Source of the DNA: a virus
Length of the DNA stretch: 56,624 nucleotides
IMG/VR virus record: IMGVR_UViG_3300017986_003448
Location: 1 to 56,624 of that record
Strand: one strand, 5' to 3'
Translations under genes and position numbers: made by a program
Shown here: piece by piece, positions 1 through 21,310 of the stretch
Layout: every line of letters starts with the position of its first letter
How positions within the stretch are numbered: the first letter of the stretch is position 1
Notes under the pieces: model-generated
What the model was told of the DNA's origin: nothing
Databases searched by the model: none
Seen by the model: the letters and a program-made list of their open reading frames with translations, nothing else

Positions 1-245
1 ACATCAGTTCTATAACTTTTATTTGCAATTTTTTCTTCTTGATAACATCGTGTGCAACCTGGATGAGCTTCGTCTTTTTTGCATTTATCTCGTAAGTTCT
101 CTAAATACTTATCATTAAAAACATTAGGGTTTGATATGTTTATTGACTTCGGTTTATCAACATCATAAAATACACAACATGGTGAAATTTCTCCATCGGG
201 ACGTATAAATAGAGCGTTTAAGGGCAAAGGGCATCCAAATTTCAT
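1..245 (-). CDS. Twitch-type radical SAM protein, N-terminal part (runs off the left edge)
   Basis: The reverse strand from 245 reads without a stop to base 1, giving 81 residues that begin MKFGCPLPLNALF. It carries the N-terminal cysteine layout of the other twitch-type radical SAM proteins in this window: GCPLP at residues 4-8, a CC pair about 19 residues later within DGEISPCC, and GCTRCYQEE at about residues 62-70. The radical SAM CxxxCxxC and GGEP motifs would lie beyond the edge, so catalysis is inferred from the relatives. The start is fixed by the conserved GC.LP block directly after the ATG. The ATG lies inside a late-promoter palindrome (244-257), so the message may be nearly leaderless. 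The gene diverges from the nitroreductase at 271. It shows that the radical SAM cluster extends further left. Confidence 0.85.
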   Translation of the reverse strand, partial: MKFGCPLPLNALFIRPDGEISPCCVFYDVDKPKSINISNPNVFNDKYLENLRDKCKKDEAHPGCTRCYQEEKIANKSYRTD

Positions 246-257
246 AAATATATTTAT
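244..257. promoter_or_regulatory. Palindromic bidirectional late-type promoter
   Basis: The 14 bases ATAAATATATTTAT are their own reverse complement and contain a T4-late-like ATAAATA box on each strand. On the minus strand the ATG of the gene ending at 245 overlaps the block. On the plus strand an AGGA ribosome site (261-264) and the ATG at 271 follow. The same 14 bases recur at 10449-10462 in another divergent gap. Confidence 0.6.
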
Positions 258-270
258 TATAGGAAAATAT

Positions 271-870
271 ATGTTGTTGAAAAAATATGCAGAAACTGCT
301 GAACGTTGTCAGCGCAATTATGATATAACGCAGCTATTACCTAAAGAGCATGTAGATTATATTTTATCAGTTTGCACAACTATGCCATCAAAAAATAATA
401 AAAATTTGTATAGACTTTTGGCTATACAAAATACAAGCATTTCTAAAAAAATATATATAAAAGGGGCATGGGCAGCTGGCGATCTCAAATTAAAAGAAGT
501 TCCTAATCAATATAGAAATGGCCAAGTATACGCACCATTATTACTAATTTGGGACGGGTCTATTTGTCCTGAAGGCAGGAATAGTAGAGAAGATCATCTT
601 ATGGCTGTAGGTATTTCTAGTGGTGCTGCTGCATTAGCAGCAGCAGAGCTTGGGTATAAGACCGGTTTCTGTGTATGTTTCGAAGAGAAAAAAGTTGAAG
701 GTGTTTTGAATAAACATATAGGTCAAACTTTAAATTTAAAAATTACACTTATGTTAGGTATAGGTTTACCAGACAGCCGATTTGATCGTACAGAATGTGT
801 TTTAAACGATAAAGTTGTCTATACATGTGGTTCTTTTAACAAGACCACACCTATTTTAGAAATACATTAA
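271..870 (+). CDS. Nitroreductase-family flavoprotein
   Basis: This 199-residue protein resembles the nitroreductase superfamily, FMN-dependent NAD(P)H oxidoreductases of about 200 residues. The segment TMPSKNNKNLYRLLAI (about residues 37-52) matches the PS..N.QPWR stretch that contacts FMN. SSGAAALAAAELGYKTGFC (about residues 115-133) matches the conserved central helix and the strand after it. The usual N-terminal RRS motif is weak, so binding is inferred. AGGA at 261-264 lies six bases before the ATG and supports this start. The gene is a single plus-strand unit between two minus-strand radical SAM genes, and its end overlaps the convergent gene at 867 by four bases. The family includes nitro/quinone reductases, dehalogenases and peptide-modifying dehydrogenases; the substrate here is unknown. 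The neighbours suggest a redox step in the same pathway. Confidence 0.7.
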   Translation: MLLKKYAETAERCQRNYDITQLLPKEHVDYILSVCTTMPSKNNKNLYRLLAIQNTSISKKIYIKGAWAAGDLKLKEVPNQYRNGQVYAPLLLIWDGSICPEGRNSREDHLMAVGISSGAAALAAAELGYKTGFCVCFEEKKVEGVLNKHIGQTLNLKITLMLGIGLPDSRFDRTECVLNDKVVYTCGSFNKTTPILEIH

Positions 871-2069
871 CCAAATACCTTCATGTCAGTTAAATGACTA
901 GGTAGTATGTCAAACAACTGCTGTTTTTCAGTAGCTTTAGGCACGCATAGACCACAACCACAGTGCTTTCCAGGACCTAACGGGCATTGAATTACTGGCA
1001 TTGTATTATTTTCTATATTACTTCGTAAATTTTCTAGAATTTTTCTATTTTCAGTAATTGATCCGATTGGGCCTCGAGTACCGTCAAATCTTGCTTGGCA
1101 AGTTTGATGATGCCAAATAGTATCTGTTTGTTGTTCTATATGCAAAAAGAACCAATTTACACTGCAATGCCAATTTCTAAATTTAGCAAACTCTAAAAAT
1201 TGACTCTTTTTCCATTCGCCGTCATTGCTACAAACTTCCATTGTTCTACTACCACAGCAAGGCCTTCCTAATTCTCTTGCAAGTTTTTTCTCTTGTGATT
1301 TTTCAGTTTGAACTGCACTAGCTTCATGAGATACTTTTGCTTCTTTTGCTACTTTAGACTCATTCAATTTAGCATTTTTATTGGCCCAATACTCTTTAAA
1401 CCAAGAAAGTTGTTCGTCGGTATATCTATGAGCAAAGCTGTTATGACTGTCTTCATGTTCACCGATTAATCTGGGAACAAATCCTATGCCGTCTCGATCT
1501 AATTGTAAACATAAATCTTTGCATTCTTCAAAATACTCTGCATGGAACATAACATTGGTTTTCAATGGAAATTTCTTTTCAGTAAGATAATAAATGTTAT
1601 CTACTACTTGTTTTTTAAGCTTTTGATGAGCTTCGGCGTGATAGCTTATTGTAATAAAACCATAGTTTTCGATTATGCTGTCAGCCATTTTCCTACTAAA
1701 AGCTCCGTTACTTGTAATAGTAAGGTTAAGCATAAATTTTTTCTTATACTTTTCTTTGTAAGTTTCTTTTAGCCATTCTCCAAACTTTAAAAAGTTTGGA
1801 TTTACTGTAGGTTCACCTCCAGTAAAATTTAAATTTAAGCGTTTATTAGTTTTGTATCGTGTTAGGAGTTCGCCGTATTCAAATACAAAATTAGCGGTAT
1901 CTTGCAGTGTTTCTAAACTTGCATGAGGTGAAAAATTATCATGTCTATGTGCCGGACAATAAGTGCAGTCATAATTACAACGACGGCCTACATCCCAAGT
2001 CACAGTTAAATTGTGTCCATCTAACAAATTTACTGCTTTAAAATCAGTTTTTTCAATTGTTTCGGTCAT
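867..2069 (-). CDS. Radical SAM enzyme with C-terminal cysteine-rich domain
   Basis: The protein has 400 residues. CNYDCTYC at residues 31-38 is the CxxxCxxC loop that holds the SAM-cleaving 4Fe-4S cluster, and TGGEPTVNP (83-91) is the SAM-binding GGE motif. Unlike most neighbours it lacks an N-terminal twitch segment. It carries instead a cysteine-rich C-terminal half (CCGS near 271, HC near 302, then CPLGPGKHCGCGLC near 362-375), resembling the auxiliary-cluster SPASM/twitch domains of peptide- and small-molecule-modifying radical SAM enzymes. A Lys/Glu/Ala-rich stretch near 235-265 is probably a linker. It is the last gene of the five-gene unit starting at 7038, and its ATG overlaps the previous TGA. 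The substrate is unknown. Confidence 0.85.
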   Translation of the reverse strand: MTETIEKTDFKAVNLLDGHNLTVTWDVGRRCNYDCTYCPAHRHDNFSPHASLETLQDTANFVFEYGELLTRYKTNKRLNLNFTGGEPTVNPNFLKFGEWLKETYKEKYKKKFMLNLTITSNGAFSRKMADSIIENYGFITISYHAEAHQKLKKQVVDNIYYLTEKKFPLKTNVMFHAEYFEECKDLCLQLDRDGIGFVPRLIGEHEDSHNSFAHRYTDEQLSWFKEYWANKNAKLNESKVAKEAKVSHEASAVQTEKSQEKKLARELGRPCCGSRTMEVCSNDGEWKKSQFLEFAKFRNWHCSVNWFFLHIEQQTDTIWHHQTCQARFDGTRGPIGSITENRKILENLRSNIENNTMPVIQCPLGPGKHCGCGLCVPKATEKQQLFDILPSHLTDMKVFG

Positions 2070-3379
2070 ATCATATACTTTTCTAAGTTAGGGCATACTT
2101 CTGCTATGCTTTCATTGCGCATAGTGTCTAATTTTTTAGTGTAGCTGCAAAATTCTTGCCAGTGATCATTATAGTAACTTTCACTATTCATATATTTACA
2201 TACTCCGTTTACAATTCTATGAGCATGTTCTACAACGTGTTTTTCAAAATTATTTTCTTCAATCCACGTAAGAAAATCATTAAAACGTTCTGTAAGTCTT
2301 GCTTTTTCTTCGTTCGGTAACACTCTTATATTTAAATGCTTTGGGTGATGTGCTACATGATGAGTAATTATAGGTTTACCTCTAGTACTGTTTATTTTTT
2401 TAAAACCACTTTCTGTAAGTTTCCATTTCATAAAATCAATCATATGATCCACAGTATAAGCTGTTACAGTAAACGCTAGCCAACTTCTAACATTTCCTGC
2501 CATATTGTCTAATGTTTGTAAATTTTTTAAAGTTTTAAGCCATTTTGCTGGATGCCGTTGGTATTCAAAAACTTTATCCATTCCATCTATACTTGCACCT
2601 ATCTTAACTGATTTAAACCATTCCCATAACTTTTTAACTCGTGATGGTAATGTACTCATATTTGTGTTGTACTCTACAGAAATATTTTTAGCGTAATCAT
2701 TTTGTACACAGTATTCTAAGAAATCATAATGGCGCTCAATTAGCATAGGTTCGCCGCCTGCAAAATATACATGCTCTATAGTATTTGCATTTTTTTCTAA
2801 TTGTTGCCAAAAAGGTTCATAATTAGGCCAGTCAAATTCTTTCGCATGCAACCCTTTACTGGTATTTTCAATTGTAATATTTCCGCTACTATCTTTAAAA
2901 GTATTTGATCCGGTTAATTTTATCCAATCTTCATACCAAGCACTACTATCAGTAGGTCCACACATTCTACATTTTAAATTACAAAAATTACCAAATCGTA
3001 TATCATAATGGCGTACTGGCACTAACTCTGTGTTTATATTACCGTCTTGATCAGTATCAGCTTTAGCCTGCTCTAGTGTATAGTCCCATTGTTTTAGTTC
3101 TTCTGTACGCCTGCTATGTAAGCCGTTGGATTCTTCTGTTAAACACCGGCCGCACTCTTGACTCCATTGATTATTAAGCATATTAATGCGCATAGCACGC
3201 ATTAACTTAGAATTTCTACTATCGTCTAAGCTATCAAATCCAGCATTGTAAGCTGACCCATCTTGTTTACGCAAAACACCTTTATTAGGTGTTACGTTAG
3301 CTTGACAGCAAACTCTTACATCGCCATTAGCTCGTACTGCTTGAAAAATCCAAGGTATAGGGCAAAAAGTGTTTGACAT
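2066..3379 (-). CDS. Twitch-type radical SAM protein
   Basis: This 437-residue protein has the full two-part layout. The N-terminal part carries FCPIPW at 5-10, CC at 24-25 and CGRCLTEES at 76-84; these cysteines probably bind an auxiliary iron-sulfur cluster. The catalytic part has CNLKCRMC at 133-140 (CxxxCxxC) and AGGEPML at 207-213. Downstream, KIGASIDGMDKVFEYQRHP matches the S.DG......R.P segment seen in the other copies. Its ATG shares one base with the stop of the PP-loop gene (TAATG), indicating translational coupling in the five-gene unit. It is closest in look to the genes at 4229-5626 and 5623-7038, consistent with duplication and divergence. The substrate is unknown. Confidence 0.88.
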   Translation of the reverse strand: MSNTFCPIPWIFQAVRANGDVRVCCQANVTPNKGVLRKQDGSAYNAGFDSLDDSRNSKLMRAMRINMLNNQWSQECGRCLTEESNGLHSRRTEELKQWDYTLEQAKADTDQDGNINTELVPVRHYDIRFGNFCNLKCRMCGPTDSSAWYEDWIKLTGSNTFKDSSGNITIENTSKGLHAKEFDWPNYEPFWQQLEKNANTIEHVYFAGGEPMLIERHYDFLEYCVQNDYAKNISVEYNTNMSTLPSRVKKLWEWFKSVKIGASIDGMDKVFEYQRHPAKWLKTLKNLQTLDNMAGNVRSWLAFTVTAYTVDHMIDFMKWKLTESGFKKINSTRGKPIITHHVAHHPKHLNIRVLPNEEKARLTERFNDFLTWIEENNFEKHVVEHAHRIVNGVCKYMNSESYYNDHWQEFCSYTKKLDTMRNESIAEVCPNLEKYMI

Positions 3380-4239
3380 TATTTTATCTTTAACTTCTTC
3401 TTTGCAGAGTCAATTGCCCATTTGCGTTCTGCACACCAATAACAACAGCCTTTTTCTAAATCATCTGTCAAATCTAAACATTCTATTAAAGGACTTTTAC
3501 CGTGTTTATACGTAGTATAATCTTCAAACTGAGATAGTAATAATTTATCACCTTCGCAGCTTCTTGTAGTAGCAAGTAAATCTTCCCATCCATTTTTATA
3601 ATACTGTCCTATTACAAAATCTTTAGAAAGTAATCTCCACGGCAAAACCGTACGCTTGTCATTGTTAAAATGCCATTGCGGACAGTCAAGTTCCCTCATA
3701 ACTTTTTTCCAAGTCCACTTTCTGTCCCAAGGTTCACCCCTATGCTTAAACTTTTCATCTATAGGATTATTTGTTATAAATCCATAAACTGCATCTATAT
3801 CATACCTGTGCTGCACGTAGCTATTAAAACTGTTTGTGCAAATTCTATCACCAGATTTGTCTAGCTGCGCTATTTTTCCTATTGCACCGTCTTCGAGTTC
3901 AGGCGGAATAAAGTTTTCTAATCTTGTCATTTTAATATTAGGAAACATCGACTGTAATTTTTCAAAAACTTCTACACTAATAGGTGCTGCCCAGGGCCTA
4001 TTATTCCATACTCTTACATTAGAAATAACAATTAATTCTGCATTAGACTTGGTTTTTTCAATAAAAGAACATAAAGTAGCTGTACCACAAGCACTATCCG
4101 CACCTCCGCTCACATTTACTGCTATTTTTTTCCATGTAGGATCAAATGGAAACACCGTATTATCTAAGGGCTGTAAAATGTTTTTAGGTACTTTCCAGTA
4201 ATTATAACTTTTATTATTCAATTCTACATTAAATTTCAT
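3379..4239 (-). CDS. QueC-like PP-loop ATPase
   Basis: The protein has 286 residues. NVSGGADSA at 42-50 is the SGG.DS pyrophosphate loop of the adenine nucleotide alpha-hydrolase fold, found in enzymes that activate a substrate by adenylation. The C-terminal cysteines (RSCEGD near 228, a Cys near 254, CCYWC near 265-269, followed by ERKWA) recall the zinc site of QueC, the preQ0 synthase, but with a longer insert between the first and later cysteines. Overall similarity to QueC beyond these two sites is low, so preQ0 synthesis is not claimed; amidation or nitrile formation on another carboxylate is equally possible. It sits between radical SAM genes and overlaps them by 11 bases upstream and 1 base downstream. 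A second protein of this class is encoded at 14338-15003. Confidence 0.75.
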   Translation of the reverse strand: MKFNVELNNKSYNYWKVPKNILQPLDNTVFPFDPTWKKIAVNVSGGADSACGTATLCSFIEKTKSNAELIVISNVRVWNNRPWAAPISVEVFEKLQSMFPNIKMTRLENFIPPELEDGAIGKIAQLDKSGDRICTNSFNSYVQHRYDIDAVYGFITNNPIDEKFKHRGEPWDRKWTWKKVMRELDCPQWHFNNDKRTVLPWRLLSKDFVIGQYYKNGWEDLLATTRSCEGDKLLLSQFEDYTTYKHGKSPLIECLDLTDDLEKGCCYWCAERKWAIDSAKKKLKIK

Positions 4240-5626
4240 TAAATATATCTTTCATATCAGGAAATACATCTTGCCAACTGGTGCTTCTTTGTTTATCGCA
4301 AAGTTCTAGAAATTCTTTCATTTCAGGCAATCGAATACTCCAATCTTCTGATTCCATAAATTGTAACATACCTTCTAAACGTTGTATACCATAATTTGCT
4401 GTTCGCCAATCTTCGTACGTTACTTTTCCTTTATGCCAACTTGGAATGCCTTTTTCCCAATTAGCTTCCCACCAAGGATAAAACTCTTCGTATTTTTTTC
4501 TGCATTTTTCCTTAAACTCGTTAGGCAAAATTTTAACATTTAAATGCGGCGGATGGTATACAAAATGATAATTTACACCACCTGCTCCAAACGGCCACAT
4601 ATTTATTTTGTTAAAGTTTTGCTCTAGTTTCCACTTTATTAAGTCAGGAATATAATATATGTTTAACGCTTGAACTGCACAAGCTACAGTAATTTCTACA
4701 TTGTTTGATGTTTCTTTGTCAAGAATATGAAATACTTCTTTTTGCCTTTTCCACTTACTTGGATAGCGTATGTAATCATTCATTTCTTCTATACTATCTA
4801 TACTGTAATGGAAACGCACTAATTTAAAATGTTTCCATAAATCAAATAAGTCATCTCGCCATTCTACACCATTTGAATTATATCTTATTTCTAGGTCTTT
4901 AGCATAACCCATTTCAATACATTTTTCTAATATTTCGTAGTGCTCTTCGATAATAAGGCTTTCGCCGCCTGCAAAATAAATTTGTTGCATGTTAGGAATT
5001 TGTTCATAAAATTGCTCCCAAAATACAGGATTTTGCTTATGCCAATTGTAACTACTACCGTTGTAACTGCCTTTGTCTTTCCATTGCATTGTTGTTTTTA
5101 AACTGGCATTTTCTACTGCTGGAAAAATAGCTTTGTAATCTTTTATCCAACCCGAACTATCGTGCGGAGAGCACATTACGCATGCTAGTTGGCATTTAGT
5201 GCCAAACCGCAAATCAATATAAGCTAATTGCGGAGGTACACTTCCGTCATCGTTTGTGTTTTCTATTAATTTACCAACACTTACTCTTTTGCTCCAGTAC
5301 TCTGTTTCCCATTGGCGTTTACTACGATGACCGGCTGCTTCTTCTTTATAACATTTTAAACAACTAGGAGGCTTTTCACCATTCATCATTTGTCTTCTGA
5401 CATTTTTCATATAAGTGCTATTCCAACTACTTAAAAAATCACTTACATTTAAATTATTAGGCTTACCGTCATCTGTTTTTAAAATTCCTACCATACCACC
5501 GTGTTCACGATCGTTGGTAGCTCCTACACTAGATGCATTTGCTGTACAACATACTCGCATACTTCCGTCTGGCCTAGTGCTCAAATGAACCCAGGGTAAA
5601 ATACAAAATGTATCACTTACTGTCAT
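4229..5626 (-). CDS. Twitch-type radical SAM protein with GGES variant
   Basis: The protein has 465 residues. N-terminal cysteine motifs are FCILPW at 7-12, CC at 26-27 and SCLKCYKEE at 88-96. The radical SAM loop is CQLACVMC at 145-152. The SAM-binding motif reads AGGESLI rather than GGEP; the GGE core that contacts the SAM amino group is kept, so activity is likely. SIDSIEEMNDYIRYP matches the conserved S.D......IR.P block of the relatives. Its ATG overlaps the TGA of the upstream gene (ATGA), and its end overlaps the PP-loop gene by 11 bases. Second gene of the unit starting at 7038. The substrate is unknown. Confidence 0.87.
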   Translation of the reverse strand: MTVSDTFCILPWVHLSTRPDGSMRVCCTANASSVGATNDREHGGMVGILKTDDGKPNNLNVSDFLSSWNSTYMKNVRRQMMNGEKPPSCLKCYKEEAAGHRSKRQWETEYWSKRVSVGKLIENTNDDGSVPPQLAYIDLRFGTKCQLACVMCSPHDSSGWIKDYKAIFPAVENASLKTTMQWKDKGSYNGSSYNWHKQNPVFWEQFYEQIPNMQQIYFAGGESLIIEEHYEILEKCIEMGYAKDLEIRYNSNGVEWRDDLFDLWKHFKLVRFHYSIDSIEEMNDYIRYPSKWKRQKEVFHILDKETSNNVEITVACAVQALNIYYIPDLIKWKLEQNFNKINMWPFGAGGVNYHFVYHPPHLNVKILPNEFKEKCRKKYEEFYPWWEANWEKGIPSWHKGKVTYEDWRTANYGIQRLEGMLQFMESEDWSIRLPEMKEFLELCDKQRSTSWQDVFPDMKDIFNEI

Positions 5627-7038
5627 TTATTATCATCCGTAAAAATATATTCGTAAAACTTTGGGAATATGTCTAAAATTGATTGCCCGCGATGCGCATC
5701 GAGTTGTTCTGTGTATTTTTCACATTCTATTCTTTGCTCTGCTTTATGTCCATGCTGATCTTCTGTAAGATTACTAGGCAGCGCATTAAAAACCATTTCA
5801 GTTTTTTCTTCATTTGGGATAAGCACATCAGCATGCTTTCCGATTTTTACAATATCTTTGTTAATTCTATCAATCTTATACCAAGTTACTTTAACGTTTT
5901 CGGGTTCATTATCTATATTATCCATTAGATTTTTATAATATTGTTTCCATTTAGTATACTCTTCAAACCAAGCTTTTTTGCCTTGATTATTTAAAATTTT
6001 AATACTTAACCTACTAGGATCATATAAAAAATCAAACGATAAATTAAAATTATAACGTATTCGTTGATTGACTCTAAATTGTTCGATATACCATTTTGCC
6101 ATATCAAACACATCAAAAACATTATATATTTGTACAACATAAGAAATATTTATTGTAACTTGTTTTCCGTCTTGCTCTAGTAACTTTGCTAAATTAGTAG
6201 ATAACACTTCCCATTTACTAGGGTATCTTATATATTCATTTACTTTTTCTGTGCCGTCGATGCTTAAATTAAAAATAACTCTTTCGAATTTGTTTATTAC
6301 TGCTAACAATCTAGGCTGTAAATTTGTTAAATTAGTAGTCATCTTTAATGTTATTTGTTTAGCATAATCTTTTTCTACTAGATTGTCAAGTAAGTCATAC
6401 ATCTCATCGTGTAATGTAGGTTCACCGCCGACAAAAGTTATTTCTTTTACTTCAAATATATTATCTTCTAAACTTTTCCAAAAAACAGATATGTCATCTA
6501 TTTTATCAAAAGTTAAATCTTTATACCAAGTGGGTTGATTGGTATCTTGAAATTGTTGCTGTTCTTTAACAATTTGACTGCTAAACTGGGGCCAGCACAT
6601 TCTGCATTTTAAGTTGCATAAATTATTTAATCTAATATCAAAATATGAAATCTGAGGATTTGTAACTATTTCGTCAAACGACCTAGTTAAAGCATCTTGC
6701 CATTTTACATTCTCTTTCATTCGTTTACTAGGTAAAAATTGTTTTGGTCCTACTTCAGTCCAATCTTTATCAAAATCAACTTCCTCTTTCCAACAAATTT
6801 CACACTCTGGCAATCTTTCATCATTTAAGATTTTCTGCCTAGCTTCGTTCATGTAATCGCTATTCCAAATTTCAGTAACTGAATCCTTTGCAATATTAAA
6901 TTTTTCATTATTATTTTTCACTGCTACTTTTTTTCGATTAACTTTGCAGCATAATCTTACGTTACCTTCAGTAGTCGTTGCTAAATGGATGAAAGGTAGT
7001 ATACAAAAATTTTTTAAGTCAGAAACTTTGTTACTCAT
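5623..7038 (-). CDS. Twitch-type radical SAM protein, first gene of a five-gene unit
   Basis: The protein has 471 residues. It shows FCILPF at 11-16, CC at 30-31, CEICWKEE at 79-86, the radical SAM loop CNLKCRMC at 141-148 and VGGEPTLHDE further on. SIDGTEKVNEYIRYPSKW is the family's conserved block after the GGEP strand. No other Met lies between residue 1 and the conserved FC, so the ATG at 7038 is the likely start. A perfect TATAAATA on the minus strand ends only five bases before it, so the transcript would begin at or very near the ATG. The coupled genes after it (two radical SAM, one PP-loop, one radical SAM in total mixed order) suggest co-synthesis for one pathway. Confidence 0.88.
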   Translation of the reverse strand: MSNKVSDLKNFCILPFIHLATTTEGNVRLCCKVNRKKVAVKNNNEKFNIAKDSVTEIWNSDYMNEARQKILNDERLPECEICWKEEVDFDKDWTEVGPKQFLPSKRMKENVKWQDALTRSFDEIVTNPQISYFDIRLNNLCNLKCRMCWPQFSSQIVKEQQQFQDTNQPTWYKDLTFDKIDDISVFWKSLEDNIFEVKEITFVGGEPTLHDEMYDLLDNLVEKDYAKQITLKMTTNLTNLQPRLLAVINKFERVIFNLSIDGTEKVNEYIRYPSKWEVLSTNLAKLLEQDGKQVTINISYVVQIYNVFDVFDMAKWYIEQFRVNQRIRYNFNLSFDFLYDPSRLSIKILNNQGKKAWFEEYTKWKQYYKNLMDNIDNEPENVKVTWYKIDRINKDIVKIGKHADVLIPNEEKTEMVFNALPSNLTEDQHGHKAEQRIECEKYTEQLDAHRGQSILDIFPKFYEYIFTDDNK

Positions 7039-7043
7039 AAAGA

Positions 7044-7051
7044 TATTTATA
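7044..7051 (-). promoter_or_regulatory. T4-type late promoter (TATAAATA)
   Basis: The plus strand reads TATTTATA here, so the minus strand carries the exact T4 late promoter box TATAAATA. It ends five bases before the ATG at 7038. With the usual spacing, transcription would start at about the A of the ATG. No Shine-Dalgarno site fits between box and start. Confidence 0.65.
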
Positions 7052-7057
7052 ACTGCA

Positions 7058-7073
7058 TTAAATAAGGTAAATA
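7058..7073 (+). promoter_or_regulatory. Possible late-type promoter and ribosome site for the gene at 7078
   Basis: The plus strand has two overlapping late-like boxes, TTAAATA (7058-7064) and GTAAATA (7067-7073). TAAGG at 7063-7067 could be a Shine-Dalgarno site ten bases before the ATG if the first box is not the promoter. The sequence does not decide which one is used. Confidence 0.35.
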
Positions 7074-7077
7074 TTTC

Positions 7078-8337
7078 ATGAACGATTCTACATTTTGTCC
7101 TTTTCCTTTTGAATCATTAGCTCTTAAAAGTTGGCTAAACGGCCAAATTCATAAAGTTTATCCGTGTTGTAATATGAAACACGATCGTCCCATAACTGAA
7201 GTAAATAAAGAAACAGATCTGCAAAAAGTTTTTGACAGTCAGACCTTTCAAAATCTACGTAAAGACTTAATGAACGGAAAGAAAAATTCTCTATGTAATT
7301 ATTGCTGGAACTTAGAGAAGCAAACTGGCCAAAGTCCAAGAACAATAGCATGTGAATCAAATAATACAACTTACAAAAAGACAAAAAAACTAAAAATTAA
7401 AAAATTAGATATTCTTACTGATGAAGCATGCAATTTACGATGTCGAATGTGTACTCCGTCGTCGTCAAACAGTTTAAGAATAGATGTAAATAATCTCATA
7501 AGCAATGACAAACCATTAGTTAGCAATTGGCCAAAGCATTCTGTAAGTTATGCAAAATTAGATCCAAAAGGCACCAGTGCTTTTTTTAATATGGGCCAAA
7601 AATATATAGATGAAATAGTACAAATTTCTGATACTTTAGAAGAAATAAAATTTACAGGCGGCGAGCCGACAATAAGTTCTACTTTTTGGCAAATAATAGA
7701 TAATATTCAAAATCCTAATATCAAAATTCATCTTACAACAAATGGTACAAAATTTAATCAGAGATTATTGAAAACTTTAGATAAATTTACTAATAAACAT
7801 TTTACAATAAGTGTAGATGGCACAGATTCAACCTATGAGTACATACGTCATCCGTTTTTGTGGAGTAAACTCACTGAAAATATAAATCGTTTAATATCTC
7901 ATAACCAAAATCACAATACTGAAATACATTTTTGCAGTGTACTAACTTCTTACAACATATTAAACATACACTATCTTGTAACCTACATAGAAAAACTATC
8001 AACTACTTGCTCGAATAACATAAAATGGAAATGCATTCCTAATCCTCATCCTAAAGATAGCGTGTTTGATGTTAAATATCTTCCTACTCATATTTTAAAA
8101 AAAGCATTAAACTATTTTGAGATTTTAGAACAAGACTGTACTAAAACATCAATACATGCTGTGAGAAAAATTAAAAATTATTTGCAGTTTAACATAGAAA
8201 ATCCAATTGACATTGATACAAAAACAAAAAAATTAACAATGTTAAAACAAGATATAGATTTATTAGATTTCTCTCGAAAACAGTCGTATAAAGACTTTCT
8301 TCATGACGACTTAATAGACATTATAGAAGATATTTAA
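7078..8337 (+). CDS. Twitch-type radical SAM protein
   Basis: The protein has 419 residues, alone on the plus strand between two minus-strand units. Motifs in order are FCPFPF at 6-11, CC at 30-31, LCNYCWNLE at 72-80, the radical SAM loop CNLRCRMC at 118-125 and TGGEPTISS near 198. SVDGTDSTYEYIRHPFLW is the block shared with the other copies. The C-terminal half is rich in Lys, Ile and Asn, in line with the local base composition. Its last 17 bases overlap the 3' end of the convergent radical SAM gene at 8321, leaving no room for a terminator between them. The substrate is unknown. Confidence 0.87.
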   Translation: MNDSTFCPFPFESLALKSWLNGQIHKVYPCCNMKHDRPITEVNKETDLQKVFDSQTFQNLRKDLMNGKKNSLCNYCWNLEKQTGQSPRTIACESNNTTYKKTKKLKIKKLDILTDEACNLRCRMCTPSSSNSLRIDVNNLISNDKPLVSNWPKHSVSYAKLDPKGTSAFFNMGQKYIDEIVQISDTLEEIKFTGGEPTISSTFWQIIDNIQNPNIKIHLTTNGTKFNQRLLKTLDKFTNKHFTISVDGTDSTYEYIRHPFLWSKLTENINRLISHNQNHNTEIHFCSVLTSYNILNIHYLVTYIEKLSTTCSNNIKWKCIPNPHPKDSVFDVKYLPTHILKKALNYFEILEQDCTKTSIHAVRKIKNYLQFNIENPIDIDTKTKKLTMLKQDIDLLDFSRKQSYKDFLHDDLIDIIEDI

Positions 8338-9427
8338 ATTCAGGTATAGTTTTTATATAATCTATGTTTCTTATTTTAGATATGTCATGTAGATGATCTA
8401 CTAGTACTGCATGGTAATCTTGTTTATAAGAAGAATTTGTAACAATAGTTTGTAATTCACTAATTTTTTTCCGTATATTAGGAAAATTTTTCTCTGATGT
8501 TTTCAACATATCAGTAACAAACTGCTTTGCCGAGTCTGGCATTGCGTCGATACTAAAATGCTTAGGATTAATGCAATTTAAAAAATCTATTTTTGTTTTT
8601 GGCCTGTCTTTTACAAACTTAGAAATAAAATGCAACCATTGGTCTGCTACTAAAATGTTATAAGGTTGTATGACAAAATTTAGATTTATATTAATCTCTT
8701 TCATTGTACAAAGTTGATCAACGTTATGTTTTACTGTATTCCAATTTGCTGGAAATCTTATGAGGTTGTACACCTCATCAACAGCATCAATACTTAATAT
8801 AACTGTTAAACTTTTAAACTTACTTTTGTATTTGTCAAAAAAGTTTTTTATTCTAGTTGCATTTGTAGTAATTATTAACTCAACTTTTGATGCATCATAT
8901 TTTTTTATAAATTTATCTAAGAATGCAATACAATACGGATCAATGGTTGGTTCTCCGCCAGCAAGTTTTAAAAATTTCAAATTACTAAAATCAATATCAA
9001 TGTTAATATCCAAATTATTACCAGCAGCTACTTGCCTAAAATATTTAGACATGTGTGTATTTTTTTTTACAAAACTTTGTATTTGAGAACTGTCTGCTTG
9101 TGAACACATGTTGCATTGTAAATTACAATAATTGCTTGTTCTTATATCTGCCCAAATTGGTTTATGCTTTTTGTAATCAATGGACGATTGATGCTCTTTG
9201 TCTAGTTGAGAAAACCAATTCCGTAAAGACATTTCACTTGTATAAGTTTCTTTATTCCAACAAACTCTGCACTCTTTTTGTTTTTTTCTGTTAACGTAAT
9301 TAGCAACCTTTTTATAATTATAATCATCTAGATTATAATCATCATCATAATTGCAACAAGGAGCAATTGTATTTTTGTCAGTTTTATAAAAAAGACCTAT
9401 ATAAGGTGCTGCACACTTATTTGTCAT
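8321..9427 (-). CDS. Twitch-type radical SAM protein, short form
   Basis: At 368 residues this is the shortest complete twitch-type copy in the window. It has C5 in a reduced CAAPY motif, CC at 24-25, ECRVCWNKE at 52-60, the radical SAM loop CNLQCNMC at 101-108 and AGGEPTIDP near 154. SIDAVDEVYNLIRFPANW follows. The usual W/F after the first motif proline is a Tyr, so the N-terminal domain has diverged. The start overlaps the end of the upstream radical SAM gene (9417) by 11 bases, so the two are translationally coupled. Its end overlaps the convergent gene at 7078-8337 by 17 bases. Confidence 0.86.
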   Translation of the reverse strand: MTNKCAAPYIGLFYKTDKNTIAPCCNYDDDYNLDDYNYKKVANYVNRKKQKECRVCWNKETYTSEMSLRNWFSQLDKEHQSSIDYKKHKPIWADIRTSNYCNLQCNMCSQADSSQIQSFVKKNTHMSKYFRQVAAGNNLDINIDIDFSNLKFLKLAGGEPTIDPYCIAFLDKFIKKYDASKVELIITTNATRIKNFFDKYKSKFKSLTVILSIDAVDEVYNLIRFPANWNTVKHNVDQLCTMKEININLNFVIQPYNILVADQWLHFISKFVKDRPKTKIDFLNCINPKHFSIDAMPDSAKQFVTDMLKTSEKNFPNIRKKISELQTIVTNSSYKQDYHAVLVDHLHDISKIRNIDYIKTIPEFKYLL

Positions 9428-10436
9428 GGAATTTTATTTCATTTTGGTACGCACCCTTTTTAGCACATGTTCTAATGCATCTACTTATATGAAGATTATG
9501 TTTAGGGTCCCAACTGTCTTGCAAAACTTTTTGATAGTATTCTGTACTTAGAATTTCATCTAGGGAATGAAACTGTAAATTGTTCCAATCCGTAGGAAAG
9601 GTTTTATATTTGTCTAATATTTGTTCTTTATTTTTGAATGCACTATCCCATAGAAAACAACACGGCCAAACAGTACTATTAGCTGCGATGAAAATTTCTT
9701 TTCCATGATAAAATTTGCAATCAATACTTGATAATATTTCTTTTGTTTGCTGTTCTGATTTATTTTCATTTGTAATAAATTTATCAAGCTCGGCTACTAC
9801 TGCTTTTTTGCTGTGCTCTTTTGCTCCACTAGTTGTTATTACTACATCGGTTTTATCGTTTTTCTTACCGATTTTTGATACCCAATCATGATAACTATTC
9901 CTCATACCAGTACGGGTTGCAAAATCAAATCCGTATTCTCTTGCTAATTTTTTAGCTTCATCAACTTCGTGTTCATTATGATCAAAAACAATGTATATCC
10001 ACGTTCCTTGGCCGCCTGCGTCACTATACGCTTTCATGTTCCGTTTGATTATATCAAAATTTGTATTAACTCTATATATATAATTACTATGCGTACCGTC
10101 TACACAAAAATTTACCTTAATATTTAACTTACCTAGTTCGTTCCACCACGAAGCACTGTTACGTCCTCCGTTAGTACTATATTGTATAAATGCACCTTTT
10201 TCTACTAGATATTGTGTTATTTCTAAACATTCAGGATTTACAATAGGATCTCCTAGAACTCCACAAAACTTGAATTTTATTCCTTTTGGGTCTGGGAACC
10301 AATTTTTAATTTGTTGTAGTGTTAAGTTCTGTGGTTTTAAAATATCTAAATTTTGAGTCCGAGCACATCCCGGACATGCTGCGTTACAGTCACTGGAAAT
10401 TTCTAATTCTACTCGTTGTATATTTTTTATTTGCAT
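9417..10436 (-). CDS. Radical SAM enzyme of the LGDP subgroup with C-terminal auxiliary-cluster domain
   Basis: The protein has 339 residues. CNAACPGC at 17-24 is the radical SAM loop, almost at the N-terminus with no twitch segment before it. The GGE position is replaced by GVLGDPIVNPE. The C-terminal half carries WPCCFLWDSAF and then CIRTCAKKG, resembling the C-terminal cysteines of SPASM/twitch proteins. CPGCAR, the LGDPIV motif and a DHNEHEVD-like stretch are shared with the gene at 13259-14338, so these two form a subgroup separate from the GGEP copies. GGAAG on the minus strand at 10443-10447 lies six bases before the ATG. First gene of a two-gene unit; the substrate is unknown. Confidence 0.85.
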   Translation of the reverse strand: MQIKNIQRVELEISSDCNAACPGCARTQNLDILKPQNLTLQQIKNWFPDPKGIKFKFCGVLGDPIVNPECLEITQYLVEKGAFIQYSTNGGRNSASWWNELGKLNIKVNFCVDGTHSNYIYRVNTNFDIIKRNMKAYSDAGGQGTWIYIVFDHNEHEVDEAKKLAREYGFDFATRTGMRNSYHDWVSKIGKKNDKTDVVITTSGAKEHSKKAVVAELDKFITNENKSEQQTKEILSSIDCKFYHGKEIFIAANSTVWPCCFLWDSAFKNKEQILDKYKTFPTDWNNLQFHSLDEILSTEYYQKVLQDSWDPKHNLHISRCIRTCAKKGAYQNEIKFHDK

Positions 10437-10448
10437 TAATCGCTTCCA

Positions 10449-10462
10449 ATAAATATATTTAT
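10449..10462. promoter_or_regulatory. Palindromic bidirectional late-type promoter
   Basis: Same 14-base palindrome as at 244-257 (ATAAATATATTTAT), again between divergent genes. On the plus strand it runs into the ATG at 10461, so that message may be leaderless. On the minus strand it leaves room for a GGAAG ribosome site before the ATG at 10436. Confidence 0.6.
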
Positions 10463-11786
10463 GAATAAAAATAGCGGCAAGAATTTAATGCATGCCAAAC
10501 TAACAAATGCTTACGGTGAAAGTTTTTGTGCAAGTCCATGGAATAGTTTACATGAAGGCCCAAACGGAATAGTTAACACATGTTGTAAGACAAGATGGCC
10601 AATTGGAAAAAATACAGAAAGTTCCTTTGAGCAAATGTATAACAGTGATCATGCTAAGAGTGTTAGAAAAGAATTTTTAGAAGGCAAAAAGCCAGAACAG
10701 TGTAAAGAATGCTGGGTACAAGAAGAAGCAGGAAATCATTCTATTAACAGAATTGCTGCTAACAAAATGAGTACTGAAGCAGTTATTGCCGACCTAGTAA
10801 AAAACACAGACTCAGACGGTACTTTACATAAACATAAACCGGAATGGTTAGATTTGCTTTGGTCAAATAAATGTAACTTTGCATGCATAGGTTGTGTTCC
10901 TGATCTAAGTTCAACTATTAACAAAAATTTCAAAAAAGAATTTGCTATACTCAACGGCAAAAATCCATCATCATATCACATTGATACTAAAGATTGGACA
11001 AATTCTAATAACAATAAAATAGATTACATATTGCGTCATAAAGATACTATAAGGCGTATTCATTTTAATGGCGGAGAGCCATTTTTGAACGAAGATATAT
11101 ACGAACTGCTTGAAGTATTATTAAAGAAAAAACTACACAAAAAAATAAACATTTGGACTCACACAAACGGTAGTGTTACTAAAAGTTACAAAGGAACAGA
11201 TATAATAGAAGACTATCTAGTACACTGGGGCGACAATGCAGATGTTGTTATGAGCAATGACGGTTTCGGAAAAATAGGAGAATATATAAGGTGGGGATAT
11301 ACTGATAAAAAATGGTTAGCGACCTATGAAAAGATCTCAAATACTAATATAAATTTAAAAATCCAAACTTGCTATAATATGTTTAATGCTTGTAATATTC
11401 ATGAATTAGGTGAATGGTTTATTCAAAACTGTAAAAATAAAACGGTATACGGTAAACTAACTGTGTGGACAAACGAAACTACCAATCCGAGTATGTTAAA
11501 CTATAATTCAGATGTCAAACAAACAGCAATTGATTCTTTAACAAAATCAATACAATCAAGAAATCATCCAGTAGGCTGGGAAGATAATTTACATAAATGG
11601 TTAGACTGGTTAACTGGAGACGGAAAAGCAGCACAGCATGAAAAAAGCTATAGTTTGAACAATTATAGAAATTTAAAAGCATGGTACAACGGCGTAAATG
11701 CACTAGACATTAAAAGAGGTACTGATCTTTGCCAAGATATTCCACTGTTAGCTCCGCTGTATAACTTAGGGAAAGCTATTAGTTAA
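10461..11786 (+). CDS. Twitch-type radical SAM protein
   Basis: The protein has 441 residues. Motifs are FCASPW at 22-27, CC at 41-42, QCKECWVQEE at 80-89, the radical SAM loop CNFACIGC at 138-145 and NGGEPFLNED near 204. The shared block after the GGEP strand is altered (SNDGFGKIGEYIRWG), so it is one of the more divergent copies. Two starts are possible: the ATG at 10461, inside the late-promoter palindrome, or the ATG at 10488, nine codons later, which would give a 27-base leader. Neither has a strong Shine-Dalgarno site. Its end overlaps the convergent oxygenase-like gene by eight bases. Confidence 0.86.
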   Translation: MNKNSGKNLMHAKLTNAYGESFCASPWNSLHEGPNGIVNTCCKTRWPIGKNTESSFEQMYNSDHAKSVRKEFLEGKKPEQCKECWVQEEAGNHSINRIAANKMSTEAVIADLVKNTDSDGTLHKHKPEWLDLLWSNKCNFACIGCVPDLSSTINKNFKKEFAILNGKNPSSYHIDTKDWTNSNNNKIDYILRHKDTIRRIHFNGGEPFLNEDIYELLEVLLKKKLHKKINIWTHTNGSVTKSYKGTDIIEDYLVHWGDNADVVMSNDGFGKIGEYIRWGYTDKKWLATYEKISNTNINLKIQTCYNMFNACNIHELGEWFIQNCKNKTVYGKLTVWTNETTNPSMLNYNSDVKQTAIDSLTKSIQSRNHPVGWEDNLHKWLDWLTGDGKAAQHEKSYSLNNYRNLKAWYNGVNALDIKRGTDLCQDIPLLAPLYNLGKAIS

Positions 11787-12336
11787 CTAAAACTGATTGA
11801 TTTCTCCATTGATCATTTACGTAGTTTACAATAATACTACTTCTATCATTACTTAACGGTTTTAGACTATGATATTCGGTTCCTGTGTTTTTAAAAAACC
11901 AACCAGAATTTTCTTTTGCTGCAACTTGACTATTGTTTAATATCGTACTGTCTTGCAATGATGTTAAATAAACTTGCAAAGTAAACAACTTTGCTTTATC
12001 ATCAACATGACTGTGTAGATAGCTTCCTTTAGCATCGTTACAAAGTTCAATTCTTGTCTTACATTTAATAAAGTTTTGATTACACACATTTCCAAAAAAT
12101 TCTTTACATTTAGCAGTATCGAATTCTTTACCTAACTCGTATAATAATTTAGACTGAATAGAATTACAAAATATTCTATTTTTGACGTCAGTTCGTTGGC
12201 CAGAAAAAGTATCAAATGGAAATTTTTGGTATTCATCTACTAGTGCGTCAAAGACTGATTTTTCCAGTAAATCATCAAATTTAAAAAATGTATAACTACT
12301 AGATATCTTTTTGTATATAAAATTGTAATTTATCAA
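11779..12336 (-). CDS. 2-oxoglutarate/Fe(II)-dependent oxygenase-like protein
   Basis: This 185-residue protein fits the small phage 2OG-Fe(II) oxygenases. HSHVDD places an HxD pair at H110 and D112, with a second His at H156 (EYHSLKP) and an Arg at R165 (NDRSSIIVNYV), the expected HxD...H plus 2OG-binding Arg order and spacing. FTLQVYLTSLQDST matches the beta strand after the HxD. The start is a TTG that overlaps the upstream TGA; a GAAG lies shortly before it. It is the last gene of the ten-gene operon and converges with the radical SAM gene at 10461. Members of this fold hydroxylate proteins, nucleic acids or small molecules; the substrate here is unknown. Confidence 0.6.
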   Translation of the reverse strand: MINYNFIYKKISSSYTFFKFDDLLEKSVFDALVDEYQKFPFDTFSGQRTDVKNRIFCNSIQSKLLYELGKEFDTAKCKEFFGNVCNQNFIKCKTRIELCNDAKGSYLHSHVDDKAKLFTLQVYLTSLQDSTILNNSQVAAKENSGWFFKNTGTEYHSLKPLSNDRSSIIVNYVNDQWRNQSVLVN

Positions 12337-13259
12337 AATTTTATCTTCTTACGTACTAGTGTATTATATAATTTACAATTAAATAATTCTTTATCACTAT
12401 TTGCAGTTAGATTAACAATACGTATTTTTTTTGTTTCGCATTCTTTAATTCTTATATCGGGATCTATATGAAAAAATAATTCCCAAAAATCAAAATTTTG
12501 ATACATAATATCTTTATCAAGAACTTCGATATAAACTTCATTCTTAGGAGACTTTGTTTTCATATCAGTTACAAAATTATTATTTACTAAAACTTTTTTG
12601 CTTACAGGATTTATAACTTCTAGCCCATATTCTAATAGATACTCTCTGTAATTACATGAACTAGGTCTGCTTTCACTTTTTCTAAACCAATCATCATATC
12701 CGTTATCATCCCTAAAACTAGACAAACCGTGCCAGCTTATTTCTAAGCGTTCTTTATTACGTATTTGCACACTAATATCATTACCAAAATTAGATATAAT
12801 TTCATCTTGATTTTTAATTTGTGTGTAACTAGTTTTTTTGATAGGTTTTGTACTTTTTGTTTGCTCAAGAATTGGCACTGTGTCTAAATTTAAATATCTA
12901 GCTATTAATAATCGTTTATTACCGGGGTGCACTGCTTCATAAAACTTTTGAATAGGCATAAAAATTCCGTTTTGATCAATGTCAGTTATAATAAAATTAC
13001 ATAAATCAATTGTTCCCTGTAGCCATAATTCAAGTTTATGATACATAGATAGCATTCTATAATCTAGGTTGCTATATAAGTTTCTAAGTCTTCGACTCGG
13101 CATATAGTCTGCAAACGCACTAGGAATATTATTTAATTTTTCTAATTTATATTCCGGATATATAAAAAAATTATAATTTTGAAAAATGTAATTCAAAGCA
13201 GCATTGTCTGGCCATCTAGGTTTTTCTGACAAATTATCTTGCAAAGTTTTTAATTTCAT
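12333..13259 (-). CDS. Protein with a possible ParB-like domain
   Basis: The protein has 308 residues and I do not recognise it as a whole. Residues 91-132 read ITDIDQNGIFMP, then VHPGNKRLLIARYLNLDTVPIL. This resembles the ParB/sulfiredoxin fold, in which a G-H-(R)-R loop binds nucleotide and is followed by a helix and a (V/I)P(V/I) strand; here the loop is HPGNKR. That fold occurs in CTP-binding ParB proteins, some nucleases and DndB-type modification proteins, and in kinases acting on serine. The rest (Tyr/Asn/Lys-rich N-terminus, C-terminal 150 residues) shows no motif. The ATG overlaps the stop of the radical SAM gene (TAATG). The context suggests a role in the same modification pathway. 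Confidence 0.6.
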   Translation of the reverse strand: MKLKTLQDNLSEKPRWPDNAALNYIFQNYNFFIYPEYKLEKLNNIPSAFADYMPSRRLRNLYSNLDYRMLSMYHKLELWLQGTIDLCNFIITDIDQNGIFMPIQKFYEAVHPGNKRLLIARYLNLDTVPILEQTKSTKPIKKTSYTQIKNQDEIISNFGNDISVQIRNKERLEISWHGLSSFRDDNGYDDWFRKSESRPSSCNYREYLLEYGLEVINPVSKKVLVNNNFVTDMKTKSPKNEVYIEVLDKDIMYQNFDFWELFFHIDPDIRIKECETKKIRIVNLTANSDKELFNCKLYNTLVRKKIKF

Positions 13260-14338
13260 TATTTAAATTGCTCCGAAAAAGGATCAAATTCCTTACCACA
13301 CTTCATAGCACAGACTTTCAACTTTCCAGCTTTGCAACTAGGTTTATTCCAACTTTCTTCTATGTTGTTAAATATACCTGTATCAAATACCGCCTTTAAT
13401 CCGTGTTTTTTTGCACTGATAGCATCTTTTCCACCAACACTTTTTATAAAATCCCATACTTGTTCAACTTTTGGATCTTTATGCCACCATTTATACATAC
13501 GACCTGCGGTCCAACAACACGGCATAGCAAGACCTTCTGCTGTAATAAACAAGCTGCCTTCGTCTTTTACCTTACAAAATATTTCAGCTTGATCATAATA
13601 TGCATCCATCGTACCGTGTTTTTGTTTGATATCGTCATATTGCTTAATAGCTGCATTTTGATACTGTGCGTTAGGTTTTTTTAATTCAGCAGTTTTATTT
13701 CCTTTACGATCCACTGCTTGGTGTGTTTCCTTTTTTTCGCTTTTTGCACTTATAAATCTACCAGTTTTCTTTGCAACAAATCTTTCAAAACCTATTTTTT
13801 CACTTAATAATTTGGCTTGTTCTACTTGATGTTGATTATGCTCAAATATTAAAAAATCCCATCGGCTACGGCCGCCTGCATTTGTAAATGCTCGCATACT
13901 GCGTTCTACGTTATCCCATACTACACCTTGACGATAGATATGATTAGTATCGGACATTCCATCTACACTAAAAATAACAGCGCCCATACGACCAAAAGTT
14001 TTTGCAAGTTCCTGCCACCATGCTTCGTCTCTTGCACCTGCATTTGTATTCATTGATAACCACATTTTAGAATTGTGTTTTCTAAAATATTGAAATATCT
14101 CAAGTGTATCCCGTGCAACAATAGGGTCGCCTAGGTTGCCACACATGTACATAGTGTTTAATTGTTGGATAAATTCTGGTTTAAAAATACGCTTGCAATC
14201 ATCAAGTGTTAATTCGCTAAGATCGATATGTGGATTTATTGCGCCACCGTTTTGGTTACGATCACACATTGGACAACTTGCCTGACAATTTTGTGTATTT
14301 TCTAAGTGTATGGTTCGTATATTTTCATACTTGTACAT
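13259..14338 (-). CDS. Radical SAM enzyme of the LGDP subgroup
   Basis: The protein has 359 residues from the ATG at 14338, which shares one base with the stop of the PP-loop gene (TAATG). An upstream start at 14383 would need a 46-base overlap and is less likely. CQASCPMC at 18-25 is the radical SAM loop, and CGNLGDPIVARD stands where GGEP is usual. FSVDGMSDTNHIYRQG and FEHNQHQVEQAK parallel the gene at 9417-10436. The C-terminal half has MPCCWTAGRMY and SCKAGKLKVCAMKC, probably for an auxiliary cluster. A Lys-rich insert lies near 195-235. Of the ten radical SAM proteins it is the only one inside the glycosyltransferase operon, directly after a PP-loop ATPase. Confidence 0.85.
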   Translation of the reverse strand: MYKYENIRTIHLENTQNCQASCPMCDRNQNGGAINPHIDLSELTLDDCKRIFKPEFIQQLNTMYMCGNLGDPIVARDTLEIFQYFRKHNSKMWLSMNTNAGARDEAWWQELAKTFGRMGAVIFSVDGMSDTNHIYRQGVVWDNVERSMRAFTNAGGRSRWDFLIFEHNQHQVEQAKLLSEKIGFERFVAKKTGRFISAKSEKKETHQAVDRKGNKTAELKKPNAQYQNAAIKQYDDIKQKHGTMDAYYDQAEIFCKVKDEGSLFITAEGLAMPCCWTAGRMYKWWHKDPKVEQVWDFIKSVGGKDAISAKKHGLKAVFDTGIFNNIEESWNKPSCKAGKLKVCAMKCGKEFDPFSEQFK

Positions 14339-21307: not shown

Positions 21308-21310
21308 TTT

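Follow-up and report, generated by a model that had tools for sequence, protein, structure and literature searches.

A radical SAM-rich island beside the tail genes of a T4-like phage carries a core shared with Bdellovibrionota chromosomes

The DNA analysed here (the window) is the IMG/VR virus record IMGVR_UViG_3300017986_003448 of 56.6 kb (56,624 nucleotides), a fragment of a T4-like phage from an uncultivated marine group; its left part is occupied by an island of radical S-adenosylmethionine (SAM) genes. The phage origin given in the original prediction, which was made from the sequence alone, holds: the right part encodes baseplate wedge, virion, late sigma and SbcD-like proteins. The late sigma factor matched 507 isolate records, the best of which were PA5oct-like Pseudomonas jumbo phages with approximately 45% identity. 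A giant protein of 5046 residues (27775-42915) exhibits a match of 935 bits to phrog_10938, a virion structural protein, with all residues except the first 305 used as the query.

The left 14.4 kb of the window contains nine complete radical SAM genes and one that is cut at the left end (Table 1), as had been predicted, and the CxxxCxxC motif is intact in all nine complete proteins. The Radical_SAM domain (PF04055) is found above its cut-off in eight of these nine, and g11 scores below it (24.5 versus 29.5) but above the cut-off for Fer4_12. Seven of the proteins were expected to share one twitch layout, which is borne out by the profile for twitch domain-containing radical SAM proteins (N_Twi_rSAM, NF033640; cut-off 170 bits): g4, g6, g7, g8, g9 and g11 pass with 194.7-426.4 bits, and g1, which is complete in a near-identical contig as the 382-residue x1 (L009:13995-15143), passes with 245.5 bits. 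The products of g3, g10 and g14 are radical SAM proteins of other layouts; g3 (29.1 bits), g14 (43.4 bits) and x4, a radical SAM gene located just left of the window (43.6 bits), miss the NF033640 cut-off, and g10 has no listed match. The best score for the viperin family (NF038283) is 45.6 bits for g7, with 180 bits needed. A longer g14 product is possible from a TTG start at 14383.

The island extends past these 14.4 kb on both sides and adjoins tail-fibre genes. The left extension was read from the near-identical contig (L009, 77 kb) and is composed of the rest of g1, an FkbM methyltransferase gene, x4, genes for Asp/Asn-hydroxylase-like, 2OG-FeII (2-oxoglutarate- and Fe(II)-type) and GNAT proteins, a third protein with a PP-loop motif that lies below the Pfam QueC cut-off, and two unassigned genes, one of which resembles SGNH by our reading. 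Rightward of g14 follow g15, a small gene, g16, g17, two glycosyltransferase-like genes and g20, and then fibre-like and tail genes, with the fibre-like pair f21/f22 standing between the island and the tail genes.

Related loci were collected by scanning viral contigs with g6 and g14, and the best 80 of the 241 and 418 related places, respectively, were kept. A set of 15 long records, some of which are near-copies of one another, consists of 14 records above 100 kb (excluding L160) and, at 77 kb, the near-identical contig. Each of these 15 related records contains 5 to 20 PF04055 matches (E up to 1e-5), reaching 20 in 170 kb, and the abundance of radical SAM genes is therefore not explained by chance. 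The commonest gene order is tail fibre, g20, g19, g18, g16, g14, variable radical SAM genes, g6, further variable radical SAM genes and x4, and exceptions to this order exist. The core is made up of g14, g6 and x4, with the radical SAM genes in between varying. With near-copies still among the loci counted, g14 lies upstream of g6 in 60 of the 64 loci with enough room, g6 lies downstream of g14 in 48 of 49, and x4 is reached from g6 in 31 of 46, a count restricted by the 10 kb flank. The multi-step modification pathway of the original prediction survives in part: g16, g14, g6 and x4 tend to remain linked, both in phages and on bacterial chromosomes, whereas a single pathway for all ten radical SAM proteins is unsupported, since g5, g12, g13, g7-g9 and others are present in some relatives and missing from others and the PP-loop genes are accessory. 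This variability comes near the refuting condition set in the original prediction, a scattered occurrence of the genes in related phages.

Two irregular copies were encountered among the core genes of the relatives. In the contigs of L158 and L161, x4 is split, with approximately 240 bases between the pieces at residue 46-50 (G011:C1:83119-84480 and G003:C1:166428-167789); a TAA lies inside the short piece, and the interruption may be an insertion, perhaps an intron, or the gene may be broken. At L174:10218-11630, g6 exhibits 68% identity and looks recombinant from its sequence, with a C-terminal half of a distant g6 type and an N-terminal half of the common type.

A gene of 73 codons that was missed in the original prediction is located between g16 and g14, with g15 intervening in the window. 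It is found in 152 of the 170 viral loci L009-L178, where one contig may contribute more than one locus, and the genome collection adds three phage-like loci. Its own scan of viral contigs gave 232 related places, of which 80 loci were kept. The end of a g16-like methyltransferase lies upstream in all 80 and overlaps the small gene in 74; g14 follows downstream in 62 of the 63 loci with room, no more than 60 bases away in 23 and as far as 4.5 kb in the others, and g6 lies within 6 kb downstream in 23 of 44. The first codon among 81 sequences is TTG in 64, ATG in 11, ATA in 4, and GTG and ATT in one each. The ratio of nonsynonymous to synonymous differences (pN/pS) is 0.16 for 60 of the 81 sequences. 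The protein is conserved over its whole length with no split into leader and core, and searches of profiles, isolated phages and Protein Data Bank (PDB) sequences gave no known match better than E 0.2.

Conservation of the core was compared with that of other phage genes in the long records. Outside the near-identical contig, x4 exhibits 81-88% identity and the late sigma factor 52-79%, the former being present in 15 of 15 records and the latter in 14. The gp6 protein is also found in 14 of 15, with 50-61% identity in 11 and 30-44%, in pieces, in 2. Record by record, in the 13 that have the late sigma factor with the near-identical record excluded, identity above that of late sigma is observed for x4 in 13, for g6 in 11 and for g14 in 6; the proposition that all core radical SAM proteins are more conserved than late sigma is rejected, as it is false for g14. 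Counting only matches of at least 45% and below 97%, g6 shows 57-87% identity (median 83, 62 loci picked by g14) and g14 shows 48-82% (median 65, 72 loci picked by g6). The median proportion of synonymous differences (pS) is 0.72-0.79 for g6, x4 and g14, and the ratio of nonsynonymous to synonymous substitution rates (dN/dS), calculated from sequences hand-picked as distinct, is 0.08-0.09 for those pairs that gave a finite dS (33 of 66 for g6, 10 of 45 for x4, 27 of 45 for g14). Because synonymous sites are near saturation, the identity of the core reflects selection and not recent spread, and a recent cassette transfer is rejected as its source.

A counterpart of the core is present in bacteria. 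A scan of an 84,980-species collection with a g6 alignment and two short peptide patterns identified 29 loci, 21 of which belong to Bdellovibrionota (20 by title, and L185 by the phylum listed for its genome); the eight excluded are L179, L194, L195, L200 and L201, which are phage-like contigs in other bins, together with L180, L206 and L207. In the Bdellovibrionota, g6 exhibits 51-61% identity, and where counted g14 and x4 exhibit 37-49% and 56-66%. Of these 21 loci, 15 contain all three genes, with differing order and orientation, and 14 of the 21 contain g16-type genes. The 73-residue protein is absent from the Bdellovibrionota core loci examined by profile search without filters. In L183 the core forms a compact unit amid ordinary chromosomal genes, as it does in the near-copy L184. 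A Bdellovibrionales chromosome (L204:9953-18692) carries a block of relatives of g6, g16, x4, f22, g20, g19, g18 and g16, partly in phage order, directly after pheT; the upstream genes were read by eye as rnhB, rplS, trmD, rimM, pheS and pheT. An origin of the bacterial loci from contaminating phage DNA finds no support, with gp6 found in 0 of 9 Bdellovibrionota genomes and late sigma in 0 of 5, the latter in a search without a positive control. Nine Bdellovibrionota genomes examined contain 10 to 37 NF033640 matches each. The bacterial distribution is patchy, as x4 is found in 17 of 290 Bdellovibrionota genomes, including the nine already known. A core shared by phages and Bdellovibrionota chromosomes points to a common modification pathway.

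In trees of g6, g14 and x4, the phage copies group with the phage-like contigs from other bins and stand beside a Bacteriovoracaceae/Halobacteriovoraceae group within Bdellovibrionota. The joint group has Shimodaira-Hasegawa-like approximate likelihood-ratio test (SH-aLRT) values of 96 (g6), 95 (g14) and 87 (x4). L204 and L180 are even nearer to the phages in the g6 tree, and L204 falls in the Bacteriovoracaceae group in the x4 tree. These are quick trees without bootstraps, with long-branched paralogues as the outside reference, and their topology is consistent with a single transfer of the core from such bacteria to phages.

The gene that often accompanies the core in both settings, g16, is predicted to encode three domains. 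Its AlphaFold model is locally confident (predicted local distance difference test, pLDDT, 90.2), and the domain arrangement is not (predicted template modelling score, pTM, 0.52). In this model domain C (residues 679-869) is a predicted class I methyltransferase by fold, as it matches the class I methyltransferase 8x8j_A with a Z of 16.1 and a root-mean-square deviation (rmsd) of 2.5 over 161 aligned residues. Residues 1-535 comprise two similar domains, A and B, which are separate genes in many phages. Pfam hits of GT2 type below cut-off and viral structures named glycosyltransferase with a low TM-score suggest that domains A and B are GT-A type glycosyltransferases; the PDB match lists of g16 are filled by the methyltransferase domain.

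For g6, the closest PDB structures to the predicted model (pLDDT 76.8) are CteB (5why, Z 9.3, rmsd 4.4, 216 aligned), DesII (8hzv, Z 9.2, rmsd 4.5, 226 aligned) and BlsE (7vob, Z 9.0, rmsd 3.9, 208 aligned). DesII and BlsE are enzymes acting on sugars or nucleosides, and as judged from the model these matches do not discriminate a peptide substrate from a sugar or nucleotide one. The radical SAM-SPASM peptide maturases SkfB, CteB and SuiB are among the nearest solved structures, but the cluster domain of g6 is N-terminal, unlike theirs, and these weak matches are on a par with those to MoaA, viperin, DesII and BlsE. PDB sequence searches with x4, g6, g16, g5 and the 73-residue protein gave weak matches or none, and sequence searches of isolated phages gave distant matches only for g6, g14 and x4 and none for g16. 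Seven of the ten island radical SAM proteins belong by score to the NF033640 family, for which no reaction was found.

The favoured reading, at a probability of about 0.36, is a cytosolic tailoring pathway that would act on a phage protein or on a glycan carried by it. The conserved core of g14, g6 and x4 would work with g16 and, in phages, with the 73-residue protein. The core enzymes may act in turn on one fixed acceptor, each by a radical step; g16 would add a sugar and a methyl group, and the exchangeable radical SAM proteins, PP-loop ATPases and oxidoreductases around the core would diversify the product. The acceptor would most likely be a phage protein made nearby, such as the fibre-like f21/f22 or the tail fibres, or its glycan. 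The genes, their conservation and linkage, purifying selection and kinship with Bdellovibrionota are established, and it is the reactions and the substrate that are proposed.

Two lines of evidence and the genomic setting favour a phage protein or its glycan. In conservation x4 and, in most records, g6 surpass both late sigma and gp6, which makes a fixed substrate probable at least for these two, an argument that does not extend to g14. Across the window and its extension, 0 of 28 genes reach the hydropathy threshold for a hydrophobic stretch of 19 residues. Among 72 non-redundant phage islands, a membrane segment is found in 25 of 576 open reading frames (ORFs) and two or more segments in 4, three of which look antisense by our reading; in 14 bacterial loci, 53 of 252 ORFs have a hydrophobic stretch and 21 have two or more. 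This near-absence of membrane segments is as expected for a cytosolic target, and together with the conservation of x4 and mostly of g6, the position of the island next to the tail-fibre genes and the f22-like gene in the L204 block it points to a phage protein or its glycan.

Several observations weigh against this reading. In 7 of 13 records late sigma is better conserved than the g14 protein, so that being more conserved than the rest fails for the core as a whole, and core or island genes had served to collect the very records that were compared. An independent sample drawn with gp6 (80 loci, 17 from longer contigs tested) yielded five records with at least 37 kb on the island side; a g6 orthologue is clear in two of these (85% in one, 88% in the other, where the gene is cut), absent from two and represented by only a 48% match in the remaining one. 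The core as a universal gene set of the lineage is rejected by this sample; it is common, yet not universal. Relatives of f22 occur in only 1 of 290 Bdellovibrionota genomes as against x4 in 17, and the core therefore does not need an f22 acceptor. The GT2, UDP-glucose dehydrogenase and PMT_2 neighbours in Bdellovibrionota argue for cell-surface glycans. The assignment of g16 as a glycosyltransferase is based on profiles below cut-off and low TM-score matches to viral structures, and f21/f22 have no PHROG match, their status as virion proteins being our reading.

A fuller scenario, rather improbable as a whole, treats the core and g16 as a new system of Bdellovibrionota origin that would have been transferred as one unit to phages of marine Bacteriovoracaceae-like predators, gained its small partner there, and now performs a radical-derived fibre modification diversified by exchangeable radical SAM and PP-loop enzymes. 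This phage lineage spends tens of kb on radical SAM genes, and x4, and in most records g6, outconserve late sigma. The question of why some phages hoard such genes becomes testable with a defined set (g16, the 73-codon gene, g14, g6 and x4), and the bacterial version of the core provides a second system for finding the product. Should the virion prove to be the target, phages would have in radical chemistry a new means of decorating fibres.

The strongest competing explanation, which is possible though doubtful, is that the island remodels host-surface glycans during infection, blocking superinfection or changing the receptor through the membrane machinery of the host. It would account for the GT2-type protein cluster found in 10 of the 29 bacterial loci (one member tested by Pfam) and for the UDP-glucose dehydrogenase and PMT_2 genes in the islands of the same bacterial genomes, as well as for the FkbM, GNAT and 2OG-type genes of the left extension. 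Tail-fibre-island glycosyltransferases of pelagimyophages are interpreted in this way (PMC7029224). The phage islands lack a flippase, polymerase or multi-pass protein, except for the 4 of 576 ORFs that are possibly spurious, and the strong conservation of x4 and mostly of g6 is unlike a receptor-matching system. The explanation keeps its standing because f22 is found in a single bacterial genome and because polysaccharide genes lie in the bacterial islands.

Radical SAM-SPASM enzymes mature pyrroloquinoline quinone (PQQ), mycofactocin and sactipeptides, and by analogy the core might mature the 73-residue protein or a small compound. This is unlikely. The overlap of the 73-codon gene with the g16-type methyltransferase end, the position of g14 downstream of it and the tie between peptide-acting and sugar- or nucleoside-acting enzymes among the best g6 structure matches all agree with it, but the small protein is missing from the bacterial core loci and is uniformly conserved. 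As the only substrate of the core, it is disfavoured by its absence in bacteria.

Ranked below this is the view that there is no common pathway and that independently gained auxiliary genes have piled up in a hypervariable region, which is already disfavoured for the core. Most radical SAM, PP-loop, nitroreductase and other genes do differ between relatives, and the two phages of the gp6 sample that lack g6 still carry 3 and 6 PF04055 matches. However, the core order is kept in most phage loci, its company is kept in bacteria even with orders and orientations shuffled, and the core is under strong purifying selection. A nucleotide or DNA modification of the 7-deazaguanine kind, with QueC-like and QueE-like enzymes, is very improbable, because although g15 passes the Pfam QueC cut-off and both g5 and g15 keep the TRSC and cysteine motifs, g15 is far below the NCBIfam QueC equivalog TIGR00364 (21.8 versus 150.3 bits), no QueE equivalog came near its cut-off in a search that did not cover FolE and QueD, and the PP-loop genes are accessory.

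That no described phage pathway has such a gene set, as the original prediction stated, was too strong with regard to CP220/CPt10 (PMC2853527) and the pelagimyophages (PMC7029224). The Campylobacter phages CP220/CPt10 are large T4-like phages with 11-12 radical SAM genes of unknown function, five of them in an exchangeable cassette (PMC2853527), and the related vB_CcoM-IBB_35 is among the phages showing radical SAM accumulation or cassettes (PMC3322345). Pelagimyophages carry radical SAM cassettes in a tail-fibre island (PMC7029224), and radical SAM is a prevalent auxiliary gene in Tasman Sea virome samples (PMC7150976). The present phage resembles CP220/CPt10 in being T4-like with many radical SAM genes and an exchangeable set (PMC2853527). 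It differs in that the cassette of those phages includes a putative glycine amidinotransferase, which is absent from the annotated proteins here, no profile search having been made for it, and the available part of their description mentions no core shared with Bdellovibrionota (PMC2853527). The only sequence link found to a Campylobacter phage is x4 with CP21 (23.5% identity). The host recognition cluster of pelagimyophages is a hypervariable tail-fibre island with glycosyltransferases and, in places, radical SAM cassettes (PMC7029224); the island here is variable and beside tail genes, and its glycosyltransferase-like genes are below Pfam cut-offs. Unlike the pelagimyophages, it has a recurrent g16-g14-g6-x4 core and is dominated by radical SAM genes, and by late sigma its phage is nearest to PA5oct-type jumbo phages; a weak link is found between g14 and Pelagibacter phage Mosig (21.8% identity over 53%). 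Radical SAM-rich phages and radical SAM cassettes in tail-fibre islands are thus already known, and the conserved core, its bacterial counterpart and the 73-codon gene are new. No prior report of a core shared by phages and Bdellovibrionota was found in the literature searched, which excluded most subscription papers and all bioRxiv preprints.

Table 1. Island genes within the window and the features on which their assignment is based.
Gene	Assignment	Coordinates	Strand	Basis
g1	N_Twi radical SAM, cut by window edge	3..245	-	NF033640 61.3 bits (fragment)
g2	nitroreductase-like, 199 aa	271..870	+	PF00881 24.9 bits, cut-off 23.5
g3	radical SAM without N-terminal twitch	867..2069	-	PF04055 34.7 bits; CNYDCTYC
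g4	N_Twi radical SAM	2066..3379	-	NF033640 368.8 bits
g5	PP-loop ATPase	3379..4239	-	SGGADS and TRSC; CxxC near end, like g15
g6	N_Twi radical SAM, core gene	4229..5626	-	NF033640 426.4 bits; 241 related places in viral contigs
g7	N_Twi radical SAM	5623..7038	-	NF033640 320 bits
g8	N_Twi radical SAM	7078..8337	+	NF033640 225.9 bits
g9	N_Twi radical SAM	8321..9427	-	NF033640 194.7 bits
g10	radical SAM with C-terminal SPASM	9417..10436	-	PF04055 42.3, PF13186 23.9 bits
g11	N_Twi radical SAM	10461..11786	+	NF033640 237.7 bits
g12	no function assigned by profile	11779..12336	-	HxD...H pattern only
g13	no family above cut-off (profile searches)	12333..13259	-	
g14	radical SAM, core gene	13259..14338	-	PF04055 32.8 bits; 418 related places in viral contigs
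g15	QueC-like PP-loop ATPase	14338..15003	-	PF06508 25.2 bits, cut-off 22
small gene	73 codons	15006-15227	-	TTG start inside g16 end; 232 related places, pN/pS 0.16
g16	two glycosyltransferase-like domains and a class I methyltransferase domain (predicted)	15214..17823	-	AlphaFold model, structure match
g17	often at same position where detected	17810..18319	-	
g18	glycosyltransferase-like by our reading	18319..19143	-	25.8% identical to g19; no family above cut-off
g19	glycosyltransferase-like by our reading, as g18	19118..19960	-	25.8% identical to g18
g20	small; position kept wherever found	19953..20291	-	
f21 and f22	fibre-like paralogues by our reading, candidate acceptors	20330..22291	-	34% mutual identity

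Among the accessory genes, the two proteins expected to carry an SGGxDS motif are g5 and g15, and both contain it. The g5 product has no family above cut-off among Pfam and NCBIfam profiles, and its relatives are found in only 10 viral loci in the scan of viral contigs. The g15 product is also above the NAD_synthase cut-off (23.3 versus 21). The predicted nitroreductase g2 passes PF00881 narrowly and has no NCBIfam or PHROG match, and the predicted 2-oxoglutarate oxygenase g12 retains the HxD and a later H...R, with no convincing match in Pfam, NCBIfam or PHROG.

Some further features were observed in the bacterial islands. A transposase-like reading frame (L183:11638-12522) is located between g6 and g14 of L183 and is missing from L184. 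The Bdellovibrionota islands repeatedly contain a small membrane protein paired with a larger one that is multi-pass (L187:1-1207, L187:19101-20550, L219:614-2063); the pair is HTTM-like by eye, and the L219 pair has no Pfam match. Long basic, aromatic repeats of the WLPGK/WLPNEVRK type are carried by GT2-type cluster proteins located next to the bacterial core (L188:12135-14060, L189:11275-13368, L191:4723-5562).

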